Shown: piece after piece, positions 2,338 to 26,542 of the stretch | Position numbering within the stretch: position 1 is the first letter of the stretch | Layout of the letters: each line of letters opens with the position of its first letter | Assembly (NCBI GenBank): GCA_938003855.1 | Contig: CALKXD010000025.1 | Location: forward strand, 1-43,434 | Direction: 5' to 3' | Length of the DNA stretch: 43,434 nucleotides | From: an uncultured Granulosicoccaceae bacterium | GTDB lineage: Bacteria; Pseudomonadota; Gammaproteobacteria; Granulosicoccales; Granulosicoccaceae | Position numbers and translations under genes: made by a program | Notes under the pieces: generated by a model | Database searches by the model: none | Seen by the model: the letters and a program-made list of their open reading frames with translations, nothing else | What the model was told of the DNA's origin: nothing

Positions 2338-2393
2338 GGGAAAACAACGCAGGCGCTATTGAACCGGATCATCGCCGATTGGTCAGAGCAGGT

Positions 2394-3008
2394 ATGGTTA
2401 AACACTACACTGACTCTGTGAAGGCCTGGGCGGATCGCAATGGACAATTGCCAGGTGTGCGGCTATCGGCAAGGCAATTGCTGTTTATTCTGGTGTTGGC
2501 GGTTGTTTGTCCGGCCCTGACCCCGGCACAGGCAGGCAACAACACGGTGCTGGACGATAGCCTCCGGCAGCATCTTCTTTCACTCGATACAATAGTCCCG
2601 CCTACCGCTGTTGAACGGTTGGCCCTTAAGCAAGGGGTTGTGGTTGTGACGTTTTTTGCCAGTTGGTGCCCACCCTGCAAAGCAGAGTTCGCGGCATTGA
2701 ACGATGTGCAGAAACAGTTGGCCGGTGGGCCCGTCACCATTGTTGCTGTCAATGTCTTCGAGGCGTTTGATGATCAGGACGAAATCAGGATGGAGCGATT
2801 CCTGAATGCCACCGATCCGCAATTTCACGTAGTGAAGGGTACCGCTGAAACCCGTGCCTTATTTGGCAATGTAAACAGAATTCCCACCCTACTTGCTTTC
2901 GACGCAACGGGAAAACTGGCGTTTAACTTTGTGCACGCACGTGGCGCGGATAAAATGTCTGTCGATTCCACCGAACTGCTCGCCGCAATCAGGCCGCTGC
3001 TGCACTGA
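2394..3008 (+). CDS. TlpA/ResA-like thiol-disulfide thioredoxin, exported or membrane-anchored
   Basis: A thioredoxin-fold protein of the TlpA group, probably a reductant for periplasmic disulfides or cytochrome c maturation. The active site is FFASWCPPCKAEF (WCxxC at about residues 83-90) and the cis-proline loop RIPT lies near residue 165. The hydrophobic run LLFILVLAVVCPALTPAQA near residues 28-47 looks like a signal peptide or anchor, placing the domain in the periplasm. The ATG at 2394 has AGCAGG just upstream; a TTG at 2379 is possible but less likely. The N-terminal cytoplasmic part is rather long for a cleaved signal, so a membrane anchor is plausible. Specific substrate unknown. Confidence 0.88.
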   Translation: MVKHYTDSVKAWADRNGQLPGVRLSARQLLFILVLAVVCPALTPAQAGNNTVLDDSLRQHLLSLDTIVPPTAVERLALKQGVVVVTFFASWCPPCKAEFAALNDVQKQLAGGPVTIVAVNVFEAFDDQDEIRMERFLNATDPQFHVVKGTAETRALFGNVNRIPTLLAFDATGKLAFNFVHARGADKMSVDSTELLAAIRPLLH

Positions 3009-3098
3009 AAACCCGCTACCGTCTGACCGGCCTGCCGTTTCATTAGAATCCGACTGCTCAGGCAGTGCTAAGATGACGCTTTTCCGGGAGTGTAAGCT

Positions 3099-3839
3099 GT
3101 GTCTGAAAGAAAAAGAATTGCCCTGTTGATCGATTGTGACAACGTCAGTCATAACTCCATAGAGGGCGTGCTGGAAGAGCTGGCCAAGTACGGGATGGTT
3201 ACGGTCCGTCATGCCCATGGTGACTGGAACCACAAGTCGCTGGGCGGCTGGATTGACCGTTTGCATCCGCATGCCATACGACCGATGCAGCAGTTTGCCT
3301 ATACCAAGGGTAAAAACGCGACAGACTCGGCGATGATCATCGACGCCATGGATCTGCTCTACAGTGGCAACATAGATGCCTTTGCGCTGATGACCAGCGA
3401 CAGTGATTTCACGCCACTGGTGTTGCGCATTCTGGAAAGTGGATTACCGGTGTATGGTTTTGGCGAGCAAAAGACGCCGCAGCCTTTTGTCGATTCGTGC
3501 TCGCCTTTTATCTATACCGAGAACCTGGTAGCCGAAAGTGAAGTGCCCTCGTCAAAGAACTCGGCCAAGCCGGTGCAGCGGCGAAGCAAGGCGTCACTGC
3601 GCAAAGATTCCGCGTTGCTGCGGCTGCTGAGAAATGCCGTTGAGCAATCTTCCGGAGATGATGGCTGGGCGCACATGAGCCGGGTCAGCAAGTATATCTC
3701 CAACAATAGCTCGTTCTCGGCGATCAACTACGGCTATAAAAAACTCGGCGACTTAATCCGGGCGACCGAGCTGTTTGACTCTGAGATGCGCAATAACGGC
3801 TCGGCGCTCTACATCAGGGATATGCGCGATAAGCCCTGA
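3099..3839 (+). CDS. NYN-domain (LabA-like) protein with C-terminal OST-HTH/LOTUS domain
   Basis: A predicted PIN-like ribonuclease fused to an RNA-binding winged helix. The NYN core has the acidic residues expected of the fold: LLIDCDNVS near the N-terminus, then DSAMIIDAMDLLY, then LMTSDSDFTPL around residue 107. The C-terminal 70 residues (LLRLLRNAVEQS to YIRDM) match the OST-HTH pattern, with hydrophobic helices and a YGYKKLGDLI segment. Length (246 aa) fits the two-domain bacterial family. Start is GTG at 3099 with GGGAG eight bases upstream. It is convergent with the RHH gene, ending 29 bases away. The target RNA cannot be read from sequence. Confidence 0.92.
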   Translation: MSERKRIALLIDCDNVSHNSIEGVLEELAKYGMVTVRHAHGDWNHKSLGGWIDRLHPHAIRPMQQFAYTKGKNATDSAMIIDAMDLLYSGNIDAFALMTSDSDFTPLVLRILESGLPVYGFGEQKTPQPFVDSCSPFIYTENLVAESEVPSSKNSAKPVQRRSKASLRKDSALLRLLRNAVEQSSGDDGWAHMSRVSKYISNNSSFSAINYGYKKLGDLIRATELFDSEMRNNGSALYIRDMRDKP

Positions 3840-3868: not shown

Positions 3869-4168
3869 TCAGTCGGCGTAGATATTCAGGTATTTCATGC
3901 AGATCACTCGCAGACAGGAGGCCAGATTTTTGTCGTGAGCGACAATGCAGCCGTCGAGCGTGCGCTCTATCAACTCGGGCAAGGTGATCTGTAAATCCTC
4001 CGCCATCGCCTCAAGGGTGGTCCAGAACGCCCGTTCAAGCCGAAGTGTCGTTGAGTGTCCATGGATGCGAAAGCCCCGTTTTTCGGGCGTAAACTGGGAA
4101 ATCTGGTCATTTGAGCAGGCGTTGAAAATCTGTTGTAGAAAATCTTTTTCCTCCAGGTAAATCGCCAT
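3869..4168 (-). CDS. Ribbon-helix-helix domain protein (RHH_4 type)
   Basis: A 99-aa protein with the RHH_4-like pattern: STTLRLERAFWTTLEAMAED (beta strand then helix), then ITLPELIERT and LASCLRVICMKYL. Such proteins are small DNA-binding or protein-binding regulators, common beside unrelated genes; the target is unknown. The frame is open up to 4459, but the longer version would run into the divergent transporter gene at 4277 and its extra sequence looks like antisense. The ATG at 4168 has GGAAG six bases upstream, so I chose it. It is divergent from the sulfur operon with about 108 bases between the starts, so it could in principle regulate that operon. Confidence 0.85.
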   Translation of the reverse strand: MAIYLEEKDFLQQIFNACSNDQISQFTPEKRGFRIHGHSTTLRLERAFWTTLEAMAEDLQITLPELIERTLDGCIVAHDKNLASCLRVICMKYLNIYAD

Positions 4169-4276
4169 TATTGCTTCCACACGTTTCTCTGTTGGCAATA
4201 TATACCACCGGCGCGCTGATTTGCGGTTTAGAATGAACTGAAATCGCCCGCCAAGCGGGCCGCCGGAGGAAAAACC

Positions 4277-4771
4277 GTGGAATTTTTCAAAAAAACCCTC
4301 GATCCCGTGGTGGCACTTGCGGCCATTGCCGTACTGGACATCTTCATGTTCGTGAGCCTGGGAGCGTGGACCGTTGGCGGCGGTGAAACCATGATGACCG
4401 GCCTGGCGGCGCAGGCGGTACTGGGCGCTGAGACCCTCCAGCGGCTGCCATTCTGGCAATTGGTGTTTCAGCCCGATCCCACCTATTGGAAAATCTACAT
4501 CAGCCTCGGTATGCTCACTGGTGGCTTGCTTGGGGCCCTGCTGTCAAAGGAATTTCGCTGGCGCGCACCGCGTCGTCTGACTGACTGGGTACTGATCACC
4601 ATCGGCGGACTGATGATGGGCATAGGAATCCGGCTGGCGTTCGTTTGCAACGTATCGACGTTTTTCGGTCTGACCCCCGAGATGAATCTGGGCGGTTACT
4701 TGTCAATTACCGGCATTGTGGCGGGCGCCTGGGTGGGCTCGCTGATCTACAAAAAGATACTGGAGGGATAG
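4277..4771 (+). CDS. YeeE/YedE-family sulfur transporter, N-terminal half
   Basis: Integral membrane protein of the YeeE/YedE (TsuA-like) family, which moves thiosulfate or related sulfur compounds across the inner membrane; TsuA-type proteins use conserved cysteines that face the channel. At 164 aa it is about half the length of one-piece TsuA, and the next gene supplies the other half. It has around four hydrophobic segments, with the diagnostic GIRLAFVCN motif placing Cys124 in the membrane. Four bases after the first ATG codon is a Phe-rich segment with a run of A (FFKKTL). The ribosome site GGAGGA lies about nine bases before the ATG. It is first in the operon. Exact substrate not provable from sequence. 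Confidence 0.9.
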   Translation: MEFFKKTLDPVVALAAIAVLDIFMFVSLGAWTVGGGETMMTGLAAQAVLGAETLQRLPFWQLVFQPDPTYWKIYISLGMLTGGLLGALLSKEFRWRAPRRLTDWVLITIGGLMMGIGIRLAFVCNVSTFFGLTPEMNLGGYLSITGIVAGAWVGSLIYKKILEG

Positions 4772-4773
4772 CC

Positions 4774-5364
4774 ATGTCAGCTATCGGACAGTGCCTGCTG
4801 GCATTTTTCTTCGGCACCATTGTCGGCTTGCTGGTGCAGCGCTCGCGTTTTTGCAATACCGCCGCGCTGCGTGATGCGATGCTGTTTAAAAGTTACCGCA
4901 ACACCAAAGCTCTGCTGGTGGCGATGATCATTCTCACCATTGGTTTCACCGGTTTTATCAGCATCGGTGAGGGCAACCCGATGAGCTTCGATGTCGGCCT
5001 GAACCAGATTATCGGGCTGTTTATTTTTGGTATCGGAATGGTGCTGGCTGGTGCCTGCACGGTATCAACCTGGGTTAAAAGCGGCGAGGGCGACGTTGGC
5101 GCGATGTGGGCCTTGCTGTTTACATTTATCGGTATGTTTCTGTATTCAATGTTGTGGTCAGCCAACTACTGGCCTCCGGCACCGGCCAGTATGACCGGCG
5201 CACCCAATCTTGAGGCACTGCAGTTCGGCCACGCCAATGCGAAAACGCTGCAGGAGCGTTTCGGGATTCCGGCGATAGTCTTTGGTATCGGTCAGGCACT
5301 GGTGCTGGTGGCGATCTATCGGGCTATTTTGCGCAAAGAACGTCAGCAGCAGAGTGGCACCTAA
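4774..5364 (+). CDS. YeeE/YedE-family sulfur transporter, C-terminal half
   Basis: Second half of the split YeeE transporter, 196 aa. Two family motifs with membrane cysteines are present: QRSRFCNTAALRDAML (Cys27) and GMVLAGACTVSTWVKSGEG (Cys95). About five hydrophobic segments follow the usual order. Start ATG at 4774 lies two bases after the TAG of the first half, preceded by GGAGGG, which shows translational coupling. A frame open from 4645 would overlap the previous gene and is not needed. Cys124 of the first half plus these two give three motif cysteines for the pair, the same count I recall for one-piece TsuA. The TusA gene follows, which is the cytoplasmic sulfur acceptor that such transporters usually sit beside. 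Confidence 0.92.
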   Translation: MSAIGQCLLAFFFGTIVGLLVQRSRFCNTAALRDAMLFKSYRNTKALLVAMIILTIGFTGFISIGEGNPMSFDVGLNQIIGLFIFGIGMVLAGACTVSTWVKSGEGDVGAMWALLFTFIGMFLYSMLWSANYWPPAPASMTGAPNLEALQFGHANAKTLQERFGIPAIVFGIGQALVLVAIYRAILRKERQQQSGT

Positions 5365-5398
5365 CGCCGCGGCATTTTGATTCTTCTGGAGAAAGTAC

Positions 5399-5707
5399 AT
5401 GGGACTTTTCGGGTCTGGTAAGAAAGACAAAAACAGTAACGCTGCGCCATCGGTGGTCACATTGACCGATGGCACCGAGATCAATATCGCGGCACAGGTA
5501 GACTGTCTGGGGGATTCCTGCCCGCGACCTCAGTTGATGACAAAAAAAGCGCTGGGGTCGGCGGCCGCGAATGATGTCATCGAAGTGGTTGTCGATAATC
5601 CCACCTCTATGGAGGCGTTGCCGCCGATGTGTCCACAGCTGGCGTCCACCCACCTCGATACCATTGCGGTTGATCGTGGCTGGCACGTCTATATCCGTAA
5701 GAACTGA
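5399..5707 (+). CDS. TusA-family sulfur carrier
   Basis: Cytoplasmic persulfide carrier of the TusA/SirA family, 102 aa. The active site is DSCPRPQL, with Cys41 in the CPxP motif that carries the sulfane sulfur. The alpha/beta fold is followed through VIEVVVDNP and the C-terminal strand GWHVYIRKN. It has an N-terminal extension of about 30 residues (basic then hydrophobic and polar) before the usual start of the domain, and the central part is somewhat longer than E. coli TusA (81 aa), with an extra PPMCPQL containing a second cysteine. Good ribosome site GGAGAA before ATG 5399. Placed between transporter and DsrE-type proteins, it probably receives sulfur from the transporter side. Confidence 0.92.
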   Translation: MGLFGSGKKDKNSNAAPSVVTLTDGTEINIAAQVDCLGDSCPRPQLMTKKALGSAAANDVIEVVVDNPTSMEALPPMCPQLASTHLDTIAVDRGWHVYIRKN

Positions 5708-5716
5708 TCAAAAACT

Positions 5717-5917
5717 ATGGCAACCCTGCTAAGGCTCTATGTATTGGTCGTGTCGGTGGTCTCCATCGCTGGACTGATTTACGTTTATGCGAAGCCGCCT
5801 CAGTCGATGCTGGTTGATCGTGATGGTGTCGCTCACTTTACGCCGTCGGTGATTCATTCGGAGACCGGTGAGCCGGTAGCACTCGGTGATCTGATGCGGC
5901 ATTTTCGGGGAGATTAA
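5717..5917 (+). CDS. Small membrane-anchored protein in sulfur operon, unknown
   Basis: 66 aa, not recognised. Residues 5-25 form a single hydrophobic helix (LRLYVLVVSVVSIAGLIYVYA); the rest is hydrophilic and probably periplasmic, with the pattern SMLVDRDGVAHFTPSV, which shares the form of the next-but-one small gene (a short anchor and a polar tail ending near a conserved-looking MRHF/MMQHY). It begins 9 bases after the TusA stop and is followed one base after its stop by the 30-aa gene. Position suggests an accessory subunit of the YeeE transporter or of the membrane rhodanese. Confidence 0.72.
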   Translation: MATLLRLYVLVVSVVSIAGLIYVYAKPPQSMLVDRDGVAHFTPSVIHSETGEPVALGDLMRHFRGD

Positions 5918-5918
5918 A

Positions 5919-6011
5919 TTGGACTTGCCCGTTATTCTGTTGGTAGTGATGTTTATTGTGTCGATGGGCGCGCTGTACCTGGCGTTTACCTCTGACACCT
6001 TCGACGAGTAG
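5919..6011 (+). CDS. 30-aa single-pass membrane microprotein (TTG start)
   Basis: A very small gene. It starts at TTG 5919, with GGGGAG ending six bases upstream, and ends at TAG 6009-6011. The product is almost entirely one hydrophobic helix (LPVILLVVMFIVSMGALYLA) with an acidic tail TSDTFDE. It fills exactly the gap between its neighbours (one base after the previous stop, five before the next ATG), which is strong support for a real gene. The form is like the tiny subunits found with oxidases and transporters. No family known to me. Confidence 0.68.
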   Translation: MDLPVILLVVMFIVSMGALYLAFTSDTFDE

Positions 6012-6016
6012 AAAAC

Positions 6017-6280
6017 ATGCAGAAAATATCCAGTGTGGTGTTTTGTCTTGCAAGTCTCGCGCTGGTGACCGGCGCTTGCTGGCTGATGTTTCCCTACGCC
6101 GCACGTTCGGCGCAGGAGGTGCAATATGCCGACACACCGCAGGGCGCTGAAATGTTCGATGATGTCGACCTTGGGGATTTTGGCGAAATTCCAGTACTCG
6201 ACATGATGCAGCACTATATAGACAGTCCGCCGCTAGTGGTCGATGGCGGTGATAAAAAAGTCCGTTTTCAAGGCTGCTAG
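6017..6280 (+). CDS. Small exported or membrane-anchored protein in sulfur operon, unknown
   Basis: 87 aa with an N-terminal hydrophobic stretch (VVFCLASLALVTGACWLMF, about residues 7-25) that is either a signal anchor or a lipoprotein-like signal (VTGAC). The tail is acidic (FDDVDLGDFGEIPVLDMMQHY) and ends VRFQGC, so a terminal cysteine is present. Cysteines inside and at the end of the protein are notable in a sulfur operon. Starts five bases after the 30-aa gene, 12 bases before the rhodanese-like gene. I do not recognise a domain. It and the 66-aa gene share a layout: anchor, short link, an acidic or polar stretch, an aromatic near the end. Confidence 0.7.
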   Translation: MQKISSVVFCLASLALVTGACWLMFPYAARSAQEVQYADTPQGAEMFDDVDLGDFGEIPVLDMMQHYIDSPPLVVDGGDKKVRFQGC

Positions 6281-6292
6281 CCGGATTATTCT

Positions 6293-7279
6293 ATGAGGCG
6301 TCTATCGATAGAAAGCCGCTTGTACCAAACCGTACTGGTACTGTTGGCCCTGCTGCCGCTGTCCAATGCCGCCGCCACGCCGTTGCTGCAAAAAGTAACA
6401 TCACTTAGTGTCTCTGATCACGAGGTCATCATTGATACCCGGCCGCTGGCCAGTTGTCGGCAGTCGAGTCTGCCGGCGGCGATCTGCCTGCCGGTGGAAG
6501 ATATTCTGGCACCGCAGCGCCGACTGGCCAACTGGTCCGGTATTCAGTGGCTGTTAGGGAGTGCCGGTCTTAGCGGTAACGAGCACGTCCTTGTCACAGG
6601 CCAGCGTCCGGCCAGGCGCGAATTTATTGCCGGGCTACTGGTGCTGGCTGGCCAGCATCGAGTCACGGTGCTGGATTCGCCGGTGGTTGAAATGCTCCCG
6701 GGGACACATCAAGGCACTGCGCGTTCAACCACGCGCACCCGGGTCTATGCTGTGCCGATGCGCAGTGATCTGATTGTCCTGCAGAGTGAGTTACTCGAGT
6801 TGACAGGCACCAGTGCCGTATTACTGGACGGTCGCAGTGAGGACGCCTATTACGGGGTATCGATCAACGCTGCGCGCGGGGGTCATATACCCGGAGCCGT
6901 GCACCGCCCTTTGCCGGGTTTACTCGACAGTGCCTCTGTCTACCAGTCTGTTACTGCAGTGTCCTATGCGCACGATGTATTTGATAGTCTGGTGTATTTT
7001 TCAGCCTTGCAGATGGCCGGTGTTCCGGCAAGAGTCTATCTGGCCGGATGGGTCGAGTGGGCGTCTATCGGCGCATTGCCGGTGGATAGCGTCAGCTACC
7101 CGCGCGCTATGATCAATCACGGGTCGGTGAAGTCCGGTCAACGGCCGGTTAATGTCCCCGCTAATGCAATGCCCGCCATCAGTGCAGTCGGTGTGGCTGT
7201 ACTTGCGCTGCTGGCAGCGCTGGCATTGCTGGCCGGAGGCTTCATCACCGGTCGCCGATTCCGCGCGAGGAACACCTGA
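6293..7279 (+). CDS. Tail-anchored tandem rhodanese-like protein without catalytic cysteine
   Basis: 328 aa: signal peptide (VLLALLPLSNAAA), two rhodanese-like domains (about residues 35-140 and 155-260) and a C-terminal helix (AVGVAVLALLAALALLAGG) followed by a basic end, so the domains face the periplasm and the tail is in the membrane. The second domain keeps the DGRSEDAY strand, the HIPGAVHRPL turn and the late LAGWVEWAS motif, but the loop that should hold the reactive Cys reads SYAHDVFDS, with Ala226 in its place. The first domain is more diverged and its loop reads VTGQRPARREF, also without Cys. Neither domain can form a persulfide there, so a scaffold, sensor or sulfide-binding role is more likely than catalysis. 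The stop TGA overlaps the ATG of the next gene by one base. Confidence 0.82.
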   Translation: MRRLSIESRLYQTVLVLLALLPLSNAAATPLLQKVTSLSVSDHEVIIDTRPLASCRQSSLPAAICLPVEDILAPQRRLANWSGIQWLLGSAGLSGNEHVLVTGQRPARREFIAGLLVLAGQHRVTVLDSPVVEMLPGTHQGTARSTTRTRVYAVPMRSDLIVLQSELLELTGTSAVLLDGRSEDAYYGVSINAARGGHIPGAVHRPLPGLLDSASVYQSVTAVSYAHDVFDSLVYFSALQMAGVPARVYLAGWVEWASIGALPVDSVSYPRAMINHGSVKSGQRPVNVPANAMPAISAVGVAVLALLAALALLAGGFITGRRFRARNT

Positions 7280-7572
7280 TGGATGTGCTGATTACGGTAT
7301 CAAACGCGGCCAGCACTTCGCTGCTGTCGCCGTTGTTGCGAGCCTGTGTCCGGCGGGGCTGTCGCTGGCAGGTGTTTCTGACGCATCAAGGTGTGCAGGT
7401 GCTTCAGGATTCAGACGTTCGCGGTGTTCTGCAAGTGCACAAAGACAATGCTGTCGCCTGTCATGATTCGTGGCAGCGCTATGGCGACAACACTGATTGC
7501 CCGGTAACCCTGGGCAGTCAGACCAATCACTCGGAGATGGCCGGTCGAGCCGGGCGCGTGGTGAGTCTGTGA
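7279..7572 (+). CDS. DsrE-like protein
   Basis: 97 aa of the DsrE/DsrF-like fold. Visible marks: N-terminal strand MDVLITVSNAAS, a helix SLLSPLLRACVRRGC with two cysteines around residue 22-28, and the C-terminal GSQTNHSEMAGRAGRVVSL typical of the family's last helix and strand. DsrE-fold proteins bind or pass sulfane sulfur, often with TusA. The ATG overlaps the stop of the rhodanese-like gene (TGATG) and its own stop overlaps the next ATG, so it is translationally coupled on both sides. It lacks the classic active-site context of DsrE of sulfate reducers as far as I can judge by eye, though it has several cysteines (ACVRRGC, VACHDS, NTDCPV). Confidence 0.78.
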   Translation: MDVLITVSNAASTSLLSPLLRACVRRGCRWQVFLTHQGVQVLQDSDVRGVLQVHKDNAVACHDSWQRYGDNTDCPVTLGSQTNHSEMAGRAGRVVSL

Positions 7573-7865
7573 TGACTGATACCGGCAGTTCTGTAAAACG
7601 CATATTGGTGCTGTCACGCAACGACCCCGCCGAGGCCATGCGCGTGGCCGCCGGTTTAACGATATTCGGCCATCAAATAGACTTTGTTTTTATGCATCGT
7701 GTGCTTACTGAGGAGCAGGCCGGGTGCGAGCAGGCCGAGTTGCTGGAATTGTGTGAGATCACTCCGCAGACAACCGTCGTCGCCATGCAGGAGCACTTTA
7801 CCCTGCTGGACGACGATGCACTCGCCACCCTGATCACCCGCTCTGACAGTGTTATAAGCCTGTGA
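7572..7865 (+). CDS. DsrE/DsrF-fold protein
   Basis: 97 aa, the second of three overlapping small genes. It starts with a beta-strand RILVLSRNDPAEAMRVAAGLTIFGHQIDFVFM, the pattern of the DsrE fold (strand, helix, strand), and ends DDDALATLITRSDSVISL, nearly the same tail as the genes on both sides (RVVSL, SVISL, RVITL). The first ATG (7572) overlaps the previous stop as TGATG; a longer frame from 7497 is a shadow of the previous gene. The stop codon overlaps the GTG of the next gene by four bases. Two cysteines (GCEQAELLELC) could be sulfur-binding, but this is not shown. Confidence 0.75.
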   Translation: MTDTGSSVKRILVLSRNDPAEAMRVAAGLTIFGHQIDFVFMHRVLTEEQAGCEQAELLELCEITPQTTVVAMQEHFTLLDDDALATLITRSDSVISL

Positions 7866-8062
7866 ACAACGAAAATAACAACACCACTTTGCTACTGGAT
7901 ACCGGTTTGTTCAACGATGCAGACACGCTGAGTGCGGCGTTGCAGTTGCTGGACCTGCCAGCCACGCACCGGCGCAAGCTTGCGCCGGAAAAAATGACTG
8001 ATGGAGACTGGGACGAAATACTCAACCTGGTGCTATCTACCAAACGTGTCATCACTTTGTGA
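7862..8062 (+). CDS. Short DsrH-like protein, third of a DsrE-fold trio
   Basis: 66 aa from GTG 7862, which overlaps the previous stop as GTGA. It has an N-terminal strand LLLDTGLF, a helix and a C-terminal DWDEILNLVLSTKRVITL that mirrors the ends of the two genes before it. Classic DsrH/TusB is about 95 aa, so this looks like a reduced third member of a DsrEFH-type set. It has no cysteine at all, so it cannot be a sulfur acceptor and is more likely structural. The match is by pattern and position, not by close identity. Confidence 0.62.
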   Translation: MNNENNNTTLLLDTGLFNDADTLSAALQLLDLPATHRRKLAPEKMTDGDWDEILNLVLSTKRVITL

Positions 8063-8130
8063 ATAGTGCGCTCGCGGATTAGCCGGGCGGATTACCGGTA
8101 ATGACACAACTTATCGCGACAGGAGGAATA

Positions 8131-9081
8131 ATGAAAACACTTGCTGCAATTGCATTTACGGTAACGTTCGGTGCACTGTCTATGAGCGCGCAGGCCGCTG
8201 ATCCATTGGTGGATGTGGAATGGGTGAAAGCTAATATAGGCAAGCCTGATGTGGTTTTTCTTGATGTACGCGGGAAAATAGCGGGTAAGTCAAAGTCAGA
8301 CTATCTGCGCGCGCATATACCCGGTGCGGTTTATACCGCCTATTTAAAGGACGGATGGCGAGCCAAAGATGCTTCCGGCACGCCGGGGATGCTGGCACCG
8401 GTTGATAAACTGGAAGGGCTGATTGGCGGCCTGGGCATCGGTAATGATTCCCACGTGGTTATTGTCCCTAACGGCGGTAAAGCGGTTGATGTCGGTACCG
8501 GCACGCGCATTTACTGGACCTTCAAAGTGCTGGGCCACGACAACGTCTCATTGCTCGATGGTGGCATGGCGGCCTACACCAAAGAAATCGATGAAAAAAC
8601 CAAAAAGCCGGTTAATCCGCTGGAAAAAGGTGCGGTCACCGTTGCGGCGAAAACCTTCAAAGCCAGTCTGCGTGAAGAAATGCTGGTGACGAAAGCCGAC
8701 GTGGCAGCGGCGCAGCAGGGCGGTGTGTCGATTGTTGATCATCGTCCGCACAATCAGTACCTGGGTATCAATCAGCATGGTGGAGCGAAGCGACCCGGTA
8801 CTATACCCGGCGCCTCTAACGTCCCTGAGAACTGGTTGACTGAAAACGGCGGGGGGGCGTTCCGGTCGAAAAATGCACTCGAGAAATTATTTGCAGCGGC
8901 AGATGTGTCGACCAGTGGCGAGCAGATTAATTTCTGTAACTCCGGACACTGGGCATCACTGGGCTGGTTTGCCGCGCATGAGTTACTGGGCAATAAGGAC
9001 GCTAAAATGTACGATGGTTCTATGCTCGAATGGTCGGCTGATGCCAGTTTGCCAATGGAGCTGAAAGTTAATCTGGAGTAA
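8131..9081 (+). CDS. Periplasmic two-domain rhodanese (sulfurtransferase), active Cys
   Basis: 316 aa with a signal peptide (MKTLAAIAFTVTFGALSMSAQA) and two rhodanese domains. The second has the reactive loop NFCNSGHWAS with Cys269, as in thiosulfate or mercaptopyruvate sulfurtransferases of the SseA type, and the late DGSMLEWSA motif. The first has LLDGGMAAY and lacks a Cys in its loop (PNGGKAVDVG), as is normal for the inactive N-terminal domain. The start is ATG 8131 after a near-perfect AGGAGGA; an upstream in-frame ATG at 8101 has no such site. It would transfer sulfane sulfur in the periplasm, the same compartment as the dead double rhodanese. Sixty-eight bases separate it from the DsrE-type trio. 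Confidence 0.93.
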   Translation: MKTLAAIAFTVTFGALSMSAQAADPLVDVEWVKANIGKPDVVFLDVRGKIAGKSKSDYLRAHIPGAVYTAYLKDGWRAKDASGTPGMLAPVDKLEGLIGGLGIGNDSHVVIVPNGGKAVDVGTGTRIYWTFKVLGHDNVSLLDGGMAAYTKEIDEKTKKPVNPLEKGAVTVAAKTFKASLREEMLVTKADVAAAQQGGVSIVDHRPHNQYLGINQHGGAKRPGTIPGASNVPENWLTENGGGAFRSKNALEKLFAAADVSTSGEQINFCNSGHWASLGWFAAHELLGNKDAKMYDGSMLEWSADASLPMELKVNLE

Positions 9082-9082
9082 C

Positions 9083-9787
9083 GTGCTGCGCCGTTATTCT
9101 TGTGTCAGTTGCGCGTGGCTTGCTGTACTGGTGTGGTTCACCAGTACAGCGGCATTGGGCCAGGGAGAGCATGGCAGACGTGCCGGTGCAGAGCTGCGGG
9201 TTATTGCAGGTGATGCGGCAAGGCTCGAAGCACTCACCGCCAGCGGTGCTGATACTGAAATAATACAAGGCCTTGCGGACAGGGTTCGCGGGGGCCTGTC
9301 GGCTATTGATATTCTGTTGCGGCTGGCTGATCAGGAAGCCGGTCGCCAGCCGCTCAGCTATAGGCAGCAGGTGCAAAAAGCCTATGTACACACCGATGCT
9401 CGCGAGTGGCCGTCGCTTGGGCGGTTACTAACAGGTCTGATGACGCGTTTTCCGTTGCTGCAACCCGAGTATCCGGATTCTGCAGTATTGCTTGAATCAG
9501 CCAGGCAGATGCATCAGAGCTTTTGCGCTGGCTGCCATGATACGCCGGTGCGGGGCGTGTCGCGACCGGCCTATAATCTTTACCGGCAAGCGGTGACACT
9601 ACCAGCCTTGGAGTTTTACGCGCGTATGCTGGTCGGGGTACGCGGTGATCGGGTGACCGGTATAGATAATCCCTTATCCGATTATGAAATCGCCGGACTT
9701 ATCGCCCTTTATAGATCGCAGGGCAGCGGCTTGTCTATGGATAAAAAGCACCGCCGCCACGGGAACCCTGAGACTGAGGCCGATTGA
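9083..9787 (+). CDS. c-type cytochrome, one CxxCH haem site
   Basis: 234 aa, last gene of the sulfur operon, starting at GTG 9083 two bases after the rhodanese stop (TAA at 9079-9081) with GGAG nearby. Residues 1-30 are a signal peptide (AWLAVLVWFTSTAALGQG). A single CAGCH haem-binding motif lies at residues 148-152 in FCAGCHDTPVRG, and a Met for the other axial ligand is likely MLVG around residue 185 (YARMLVGVRGDR). The N-terminal 140 residues carry no known domain to my eye and are rich in charged helices, longer than in a normal cytochrome c of about 100 aa. The natural reading is an electron acceptor for sulfur oxidation. Confidence 0.88.
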   Translation: MLRRYSCVSCAWLAVLVWFTSTAALGQGEHGRRAGAELRVIAGDAARLEALTASGADTEIIQGLADRVRGGLSAIDILLRLADQEAGRQPLSYRQQVQKAYVHTDAREWPSLGRLLTGLMTRFPLLQPEYPDSAVLLESARQMHQSFCAGCHDTPVRGVSRPAYNLYRQAVTLPALEFYARMLVGVRGDRVTGIDNPLSDYEIAGLIALYRSQGSGLSMDKKHRRHGNPETEAD

Positions 9788-25633: not shown

Positions 25634-26542
25634 CTACGCATTTTTTGCGTAGATTATATTCTCGATACCACGTAGCGTGATAGTCGACCCATCGTTGTGA
25701 GTTAACGTTTTAACTTGTCCGTTTTTGCTTGTGGTCACGGTGTAATCACAGGCATTTCCCGAAACAGTAACAGTGTCACTGCCTTTGCCGCCCTTCACGT
25801 CGGTGTTACCGGTAGCCCGTGTCAGGTCAATGCAATCATCGCCTTTGCCAGTCTTCACAGTGTTGCCGCGACCGTCAATGGACACATGGTCCGCACCCCG
25901 TCCCGTTGTGATATCGTTGCGATTGCCGGAGACATCAACACAGTCGCGGCCTTTACCGGTTTGAATGGTGTTGCCACGCCCGTTGATAGACAACTGATCA
26001 GCACCGCGACCGGTGTTGATATCGTTGCGATTGCCGGAGACATCAACACAGTCTCGGCCTTTGCCGGTTTGAATGGTGTTGCCACGCCCGTTGACTGACA
26101 ACTGATCGGCACCGCGACCGGTGTTGATATCGTTGCGATTGCCGGAGACATCAACACAGTCACGGCCTTTACCGGTTTGAATGGTGTTGCCACGCCCGGT
26201 GATAGACAACTGATCGGCACCGCGACCGGCGTTGATATCGTTGCGATTGCCAGAGACATCAACACCGTCACGGCCTTTGCCGGTTTGAATGGTGTTGCCG
26301 CGCCCGTTGACACACACTTGATCGGCGCCACGGCCGGTCTTTATATCGTTGCGGTTACCGAAGATATCAATTGCGTCGGTGCCCTTGCCGGTTTGGACAG
26401 TATCGCCATTACCGCATATGGCCACCAGTACCGCGCACCGGCCACCACTGCCGTAGTGTGACTGTGACTTGGATGAACTGCCTGTCTGAGCAGAGTGTTG
26501 CTGCAAAGCTGCCGTGGATGCTGCGCTTAATGAAATATTCAT
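25634..26542 (-). CDS. RTX-like protein built of 18-residue repeats
   Basis: 302 aa. About 11 consecutive 18-residue repeats, in pairs of GRGNTIQTGKGRDCVDVS and GNRNDINTGRGADQLSIN (108 bases per pair), fill residues 44-240. Each has the form xGxGxD of calcium-binding beta-rolls, but the first Gly of the canonical GGxGxD is replaced by Thr-Gly. A final TITLRGIENIIYAKNA is typical of RTX tail ends. It has no N-terminal signal peptide; its first 30 residues are Ser/Ala/Gln rich. A type I secretion signal at the C-terminus is likely but not provable. Repeated Cys in RDCVDVS is unusual for a secreted calcium protein. Ribosome site AGAGG before ATG 26542. Confidence 0.87.
   Translation of the reverse strand: MNISLSAASTAALQQHSAQTGSSSKSQSHYGSGGRCAVLVAICGNGDTVQTGKGTDAIDIFGNRNDIKTGRGADQVCVNGRGNTIQTGKGRDGVDVSGNRNDINAGRGADQLSITGRGNTIQTGKGRDCVDVSGNRNDINTGRGADQLSVNGRGNTIQTGKGRDCVDVSGNRNDINTGRGADQLSINGRGNTIQTGKGRDCVDVSGNRNDITTGRGADHVSIDGRGNTVKTGKGDDCIDLTRATGNTDVKGGKGSDTVTVSGNACDYTVTTSKNGQVKTLTHNDGSTITLRGIENIIYAKNA
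25875..26410 (-). repeat. In-gene tandem repeat, 108-bp unit
   Basis: About five head-to-tail copies of a 108-bp unit inside the RTX-like gene; the string GATATCGTTGCGATTGCCGG recurs at 25910 and 26018, exactly 108 apart, and further on. Units are nearly identical in the middle and diverge at the ends. Such DNA is prone to gain or loss of units, so the protein length may vary between strains. Confidence 0.9.

Follow-up and report, generated by a model that had tools for sequence, protein, structure and literature searches.

The window analyzed here is a stretch of 43,434 nucleotides from an uncultured Granulosicoccaceae bacterium (contig CALKXD010000025.1), and its positions 4277-9787 hold a compact array of twelve + strand open reading frames, with coordinates and strand as given in a preliminary description made from the letters of the DNA alone. 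The genes, referred to as g1 to g12, encode a YeeE/TsuA-type transporter in two halves, a TusA-family sulfur carrier, three tiny membrane proteins, a DsrE-like trio, two rhodanese-family proteins and a c-type cytochrome, and a divergent regulator gene (r1) and a putative operator lie in front of them. For comparison, 84,980 species genomes were scanned with g2, which yielded 346 relatives, and the best 80 loci were analyzed. The features of the locus are as follows:

3869-4168, - strand: r1, ribbon-helix-helix (RHH) DNA-binding protein of the RHH_4 family, 99 amino acids, divergent from the operon (PF13467, E 4.6e-19)
4190-4209, + strand: putative operator TGTTGGCAATATATACCACC, an imperfect TGG-N9-CCA palindrome between r1 and g1, with matches across r1-bearing loci
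4277-4771, + strand: g1, C-terminal half of a YeeE/TsuA-type transporter, 164 amino acids (PF04143, 5.3e-21)
4774-5364, + strand: g2, N-terminal half of a YeeE/TsuA-type transporter, 196 amino acids (PF04143, 1.1e-26)
5399-5707, + strand: g3, TusA-family sulfur carrier, 102 amino acids, CPRP motif (PF01206, 7.2e-16)
5717-5917, + strand: g4, protein of 66 amino acids with one N-terminal membrane helix (7-25) and a conserved tail (hidden Markov model (HMM) match in 78/80 loci)
5919-6011, + strand: g5, single-helix membrane protein of 30 amino acids, TTG start, helix 5-23 (73/80 loci, several matches weak)
6017-6280, + strand: g6, membrane-anchored protein of 87 amino acids with a Gly-Cys-COOH end, a proposed sulfur-carrying arm (GC end in 90/90)
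6293-7279, + strand: g7, two-domain rhodanese-like protein without catalytic Cys, with signal sequence, C-terminal membrane helix and CX9C pair (PF00581, 7e-10)
7279-7572, + strand: g8, DsrE-like protein, 97 amino acids, invariant Cys61 (84/84; AlphaFold2 model with a predicted local distance difference test score (pLDDT) of 96)
7572-7865, + strand: g9, DsrF-like protein, 97 amino acids, without conserved Cys (AlphaFold2 pLDDT 90)
7862-8062, + strand: g10, putative DsrH-like third subunit, 66 amino acids, GTG start, without conserved Cys (assigned from position, size and a C-terminal strand motif)
8131-9081, + strand: g11, exported two-domain rhodanese, active loop CNSGHWAS (PF00581, 3.7e-23)
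9083-9787, + strand: g12, exported monohaem c-type cytochrome with an N-terminal helical region (CXXCH in 77/77)

From g1 to g12 the genes are separated by gaps of 2, 34, 9, 1, 5 and 12 bp, overlaps of 1, 1 and 4 bp, and gaps of 68 and 1 bp. The array is thus as compact as the preliminary description had it, but it is not largely overlapping, since overlaps occur at only three junctions. Likewise, the extent of twelve genes stood, but the unit is larger: the regulator gene and its operator had been missed, as had the tie to the Dsr pathway, and all three emerge from the present analysis. Pfam assigns g1 and g2 (Sulf_transp), g3 (TusA), and g7 and g11 (Rhodanese). No family in Pfam or NCBIfam scores above cut-off for g4, g5, g6, g8, g9 or g10, and g12 obtains only a sub-threshold cytochrome match.

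The gene order is widely shared. The best 80 of the 346 g2 relatives come from Alpha-, Beta- and Gammaproteobacteria and from SAR324, with carriers such as Sedimenticola selenatireducens, Magnetovibrio blakemorei, Rhodobium orientis, Thiorhodococcus mannitoliphagus, Maritimibacter and SUP05. All twelve genes were detected by HMM in 54 of these loci, and many of the others are contigs ending early. Orthologues of g7 occur in 4/48 genomes of the bacterium's own order and in 11/369 genomes sampled from its class, distributed over nine families. The thirteen loci around these orthologues have the same order apart from contig ends and three exceptions: in L046 g11 is inverted and upstream, in L054 it was not found, and L047 is a short contig with rearranged genes. 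In some of the thirteen, g5 and g10 are too weak to be detected. The single unit proposed in the preliminary description was to stand or fall with this order, which recurs in nine Gammaproteobacterial families and in Alpha-, Betaproteobacteria and SAR324. The sharing is far beyond chance. With gene order kept across lineages, there is good support for the twelve genes acting as a single unit that connects the two sides of the membrane. The operon rearranges in blocks yet remains together. In loci of the SUP05/Acidiferrobacteraceae type (L104, L110, L125, L127, L130, L131), g8 and g9 are present and a recognisable g10 was not found; g11 is placed between the regulator site and g1 in L066, L070, L072 and L080, and the gene order is rotated in L085 and L088.

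Despite the split, g1 and g2 together retain the Sulf_transp domain and the three cysteines of the YeeE/TsuA family (22, 91 and 293): C124 of g1, kept in 87/87, aligns with C293 of the Spirochaeta YeeE 6leo, and C27 (9/9) and C95 (91/91) of g2 align with C22 and C91. The third gene, g3, has the TusA domain with the CPxP motif, whose Cys is kept in 91/91 sequences, and a second Cys five residues upstream in 86/91. The three conserved cysteines and a TusA-like partner are common to the TsuA-TsuB and YeeE-YeeD pairs of Spirochaeta thermophila and E. coli, in contrast to which the locus has a split chain with the C-terminal half first, no assimilation context and ten further genes. PmpA and PmpB also divide the YeeE family into an N-half and a C-half protein, but these have ~130 amino acids and one Cys each (PMC11582611), as compared to 164 and 196 amino acids and all three cysteines in g1 and g2.

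The sequence profiles of g8, g9 and g10 showed no relation to each other in profile-profile comparison, and a sequence-profile search of the PDB with g8 gave chance matches only; structure prediction was therefore used. The AlphaFold2 model of g8 aligns with YchN (Z 12.5), DsrE (2hy5_A, 12.1) and TusD (11.9), and that of g9 with an archaeal DsrE-like protein (Z 10.2) and DsrE (2hy5_A, 8.7). The top nine structural matches of g9 are all of the DsrE/F family (Z 10.2-7.7); its best Foldseek matches are mixed, the family emerging only in the VIA-align ranking. On these models, g8 and g9 are predicted to have the DsrE/DsrF fold. Of the three DsrE-fold-like genes named in the preliminary description, these two are upheld, whereas g10 qualifies only by its place after g9, its size and a shared C-terminal ending, V-I-T/S-L.

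Such a gene set recalls the yeeE-tusA-dsrEFH type II (YTD) cluster of cable bacteria and Desulfobacterota (PMC13293266, PMC13047784), which likewise comprises a YeeE-type transporter, TusA and three DsrE-fold proteins, one with an active Cys. The locus might then simply be a YTD cluster in another lineage, with accessory genes. The functional order is the same (YeeE, TusA, DsrE-, DsrF- and DsrH-like; PMC13047784, PMC13293266), DsrEFH II subtype 1 is found in some Pseudomonadota, and the presumed active Cys of the DsrE type, a putative counterpart of Cys67/Cys78, is conserved in g8. However, YTD consists of five genes with a single-chain YeeE, whereas here yeeE is split, g4-g7 intervene before the trio, g11 and g12 follow it, and all twelve genes, seven of them extra, keep a conserved order. 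Moreover, YTD accompanies reductive DsrAB, oxidative DsrAB being found in only 4.7% of 985 genomes (PMC13293266), while the carriers here, proteobacteria that oxidize sulfur, have canonical DsrEFH as well, and a dedicated RHH or kinase regulator accompanies the operon. We therefore regard a mere YTD variant as unlikely. What the comparison does change is the verdict on novelty: the unit on both sides of the membrane proposed in the preliminary description stands, but its cytoplasmic core has a precedent in YTD and DsrEFH type II (PMC13293266, PMC13047784). The core is of a known kind, like YTD; the periplasmic half, the split transporter and the regulator are the new parts.

Among these new parts, a hydropathy scan gives g4, g5 and g6 a single helix apiece and g7 two, of which one is signal-like and the other C-terminal. 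The Gly-Cys end of g6 mostly reads FGGC or FQGC; no Cys is conserved among the orthologues of g4. A paralogy of g4 and g6, suspected by eye, is not claimed, profile comparison being weak (probability 25%). The SoxY swinging arm likewise has a Cys on a glycine-containing C-terminal tail, GGCGG, and the likeness of g6 to SoxY is confined to this tail, since g6 is membrane-anchored, 87 amino acids long and without SoxY match.

The earlier view of g7 as a dead membrane rhodanese agrees with the alignment, in which both active loops lack Cys: loop 1 has Gly or Ala in 83 rows and loop 2 Ala or Gly in 61/62 ungapped rows, so that the orthologues do not classify as active rhodaneses. The second rhodanese domain is missing in about one third of them, and the pair C55/C65 in the first domain is invariant (88/88); to judge from the alignment, g7 is better defined by this CX9C than by the label of a dead rhodanese. 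In the periplasmic rhodanese g11, described earlier as active, the catalytic Cys is kept in 79/79 sequences within the loop CNTGHWAS or CNSGHWAS, and the closest solved structures are thiosulfate and 3-mercaptopyruvate sulfurtransferases. The cytochrome g12 carries a single CXXCH and has no significant match in Pfam or the PDB; with no conserved Met or His after the CXXCH, it does not classify as a class I cytochrome c, in which Met is the distal ligand.

Transcription of the operon is probably under dedicated control. The regulator r1 scores well over the PF13467 cut-off (68.7 bits versus 25) and was found in 53/70 loci with upstream room; its cysteines C18 (60/60), C74 (59/59), C85 (59/59) and C90 (56/58) are conserved. 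In nearly all r1-bearing loci, matches to at least 15/20 operator positions lie beside r1 or the operon start, as compared to 3 matches in 551 kb of shuffled DNA. The core pattern occurs at exactly one site in the bacterium's own 6.8-Mb genome and at one or two sites in 13/15 other genomes, and a reversed-pattern control had no match in the genomes scanned. A second match in the sister genome G006 falls within a gene for a sugar permease and was put down to chance. In L075 (6876-6966), a second g11-like rhodanese gene is immediately preceded by a second operator-like site.

Loci without r1 often carry, beside the operon, genes for a phosphonate-binding-like protein, a HAMP histidine kinase and a sigma-54 response regulator (L046, L048, L051-L053, L055, L092, L100, L102, L103 (partly in view), L121, L124, L126, L129 and L134). 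The full set was never seen together with the RHH gene, for which this kinase system is a regulatory replacement. Ribbon-helix-helix proteins are not a class of regulators known to sense sulfur, and no RHH regulator in sulfur oxidation was found in the openly licensed literature; r1 may repress the operon and sense sulfur.

Signalling could also be the purpose of the whole operon: a small flux through YeeE and TusA would reach the cysteines of r1, or be reported by the kinase system, rather than feed catabolism. A signalling role has been published for SoxT1B of Hyphomicrobium (PMC11582611), and the four conserved cysteines in r1 and the dedicated operator adjoining the operon speak for such a module. 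Yet each genome has about one operator, which would confine r1 to this locus; many carriers without r1 use an unrelated kinase system and retain the same twelve genes; and twelve genes, rhodanese and cytochrome included, are many for a sensor. Sequence by itself does not settle between relay and sensor, but we consider a sensor quite improbable.

The operon is linked to reverse Dsr. DsrA exceeds the family cut-off in 25/27 operon genomes, and one more has a fragment; G308, an operon genome without DsrA, has two HdrB-like genes 3 kb apart. With control for genome relatedness only partial in these counts, DsrA is present in 10/11 operon genomes of the class sample versus 107/358 others (Fisher p 6e-5), SoxB exceeds its cut-off in 9/11 (p 0.009), and of the 48 genomes of the own order, 14 have DsrA, these including all 4 that carry the operon (hypergeometric p about 0.005). 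Canonical DsrE is present alongside in 22/23 operon genomes, which makes g8-g10 an additional complex. SoxY has been reported near YeeE/D in lucinid symbionts (PMC11237559); no SoxY gene was seen by eye beside the operon in three Sedimenticola loci.

This linkage also bears on whether the transporter serves thiosulfate assimilation, as in TsuAB, or selenium handling, as in YedE/YedF, next to unrelated neighbours. NCBIfam matches do point in these directions (the g1 and g2 halves to TsuA and YedE/FdhT, g3 to YedF, g11 to ExtH), but all are sub-threshold and far under the curated cut-offs, and the tight tie to DsrA and SoxB together with the conserved periplasmic genes favours dissimilation. Assimilation or selenium handling is accordingly very hard to sustain.

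On balance, we lean towards the locus being a regulated module for periplasm-to-cytoplasm import and relay of sulfane sulfur, which would feed reverse Dsr (in one genome perhaps sHdr). Invariant thiols are found at g3, g6, g7, g8 and g11, and the Gly-Cys end of g6, the CX9C of g7, the CPxP of TusA and the DsrE-type Cys suggest a sulfur relay; its periplasmic half is deduced from localization signals and these thiols. We infer the sulfur substrate and direction, each hand-off, a periplasmic g6 arm, repression and sensing in the following manner: With its Cys, exported g11 may accept sulfane sulfur from thiosulfate or polysulfide and load the C-terminal Gly-Cys arm of membrane-anchored g6, while the redox chemistry of loading or release would fall to g7, through its CX9C, and to cytochrome g12. 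The sulfur would then cross the three-cysteine channel of the split YeeE (g1 and g2) to the CPxP Cys of TusA (g3), which could give it to Cys61 of g8 in a g8-g9-g10 complex. From there, the sulfur may pass on to the separate canonical DsrEFH/DsrC of the cell. Possibly, r1 represses the operon at 4190-4209 until its cysteines are sulfur-modified. Published counterparts support the cytoplasmic half: TusA-to-DsrE transfer was shown in vitro for the analogous YTD complex or DsrEFH type II (PMC13293266), and in Hyphomicrobium the sulfur to be oxidized is brought in by the YeeE-like SoxT (PMC11582611). The SoxT1A module of Hyphomicrobium denitrificans resembles the locus in that a YeeE-like transporter imports periplasmic sulfur to be oxidized in the cytoplasm and a small protein with one helix is encoded close by; it differs in its single-chain transporter, its sox/shdr region and its ArsR-type regulators, and neither a DsrEFH-like trio nor a dead rhodanese nor a GC-tailed protein has been described for it.

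Several observations weigh against import and relay into reverse Dsr. Charge leaves the membrane topology of g6 and g4 ambiguous, and a cytoplasmic g6 tail would change its role; g12 is a monohaem cytochrome without fixed distal ligand or assigned partner; SoxB is missing in two operon genomes. Furthermore, the operon occurs in just 10/117 Dsr genomes of the class and is therefore one option for the Dsr pathway, not a requirement. More tentatively, as a possibility about which we have some doubt, the locus may represent a new transmembrane sulfur relay. In it, a periplasmic chain (rhodanese, GC-tailed arm, CX9C rhodanese-fold protein and open-haem-site cytochrome c) would load the split YeeE, and TusA and a third type of DsrEFH would unload it, under a sulfur-sensing RHH repressor. 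Searches of the open literature turned up no account of the locus as assembled from twelve genes, of the GC-tailed or the CX9C rhodanese-fold protein, or of the regulator. Little is understood of how periplasmic sulfur, whether bound or stored, gets to the Dsr enzymes in the cytoplasm, and such a relay, if true, would supply its carriers with the import step that is missing between periplasm and reverse Dsr. The locus also brings to light a regulator and small membrane proteins for which annotation offers no family; it spans several proteobacterial classes and is present in cultured strains, and its parts with single invariant cysteines are individually testable.

Two further regions of the window may be mentioned. 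Upstream of the operon, positions 2379-3839 (+ strand) encode a thioredoxin-like redoxin and an NYN/OST-HTH protein, and the NYN gene also adjoins the operon in a sister genome (L033). At 25634-26542 (- strand), a protein is built from near-identical repeats of the form GNRNDI-TGRGADQ.

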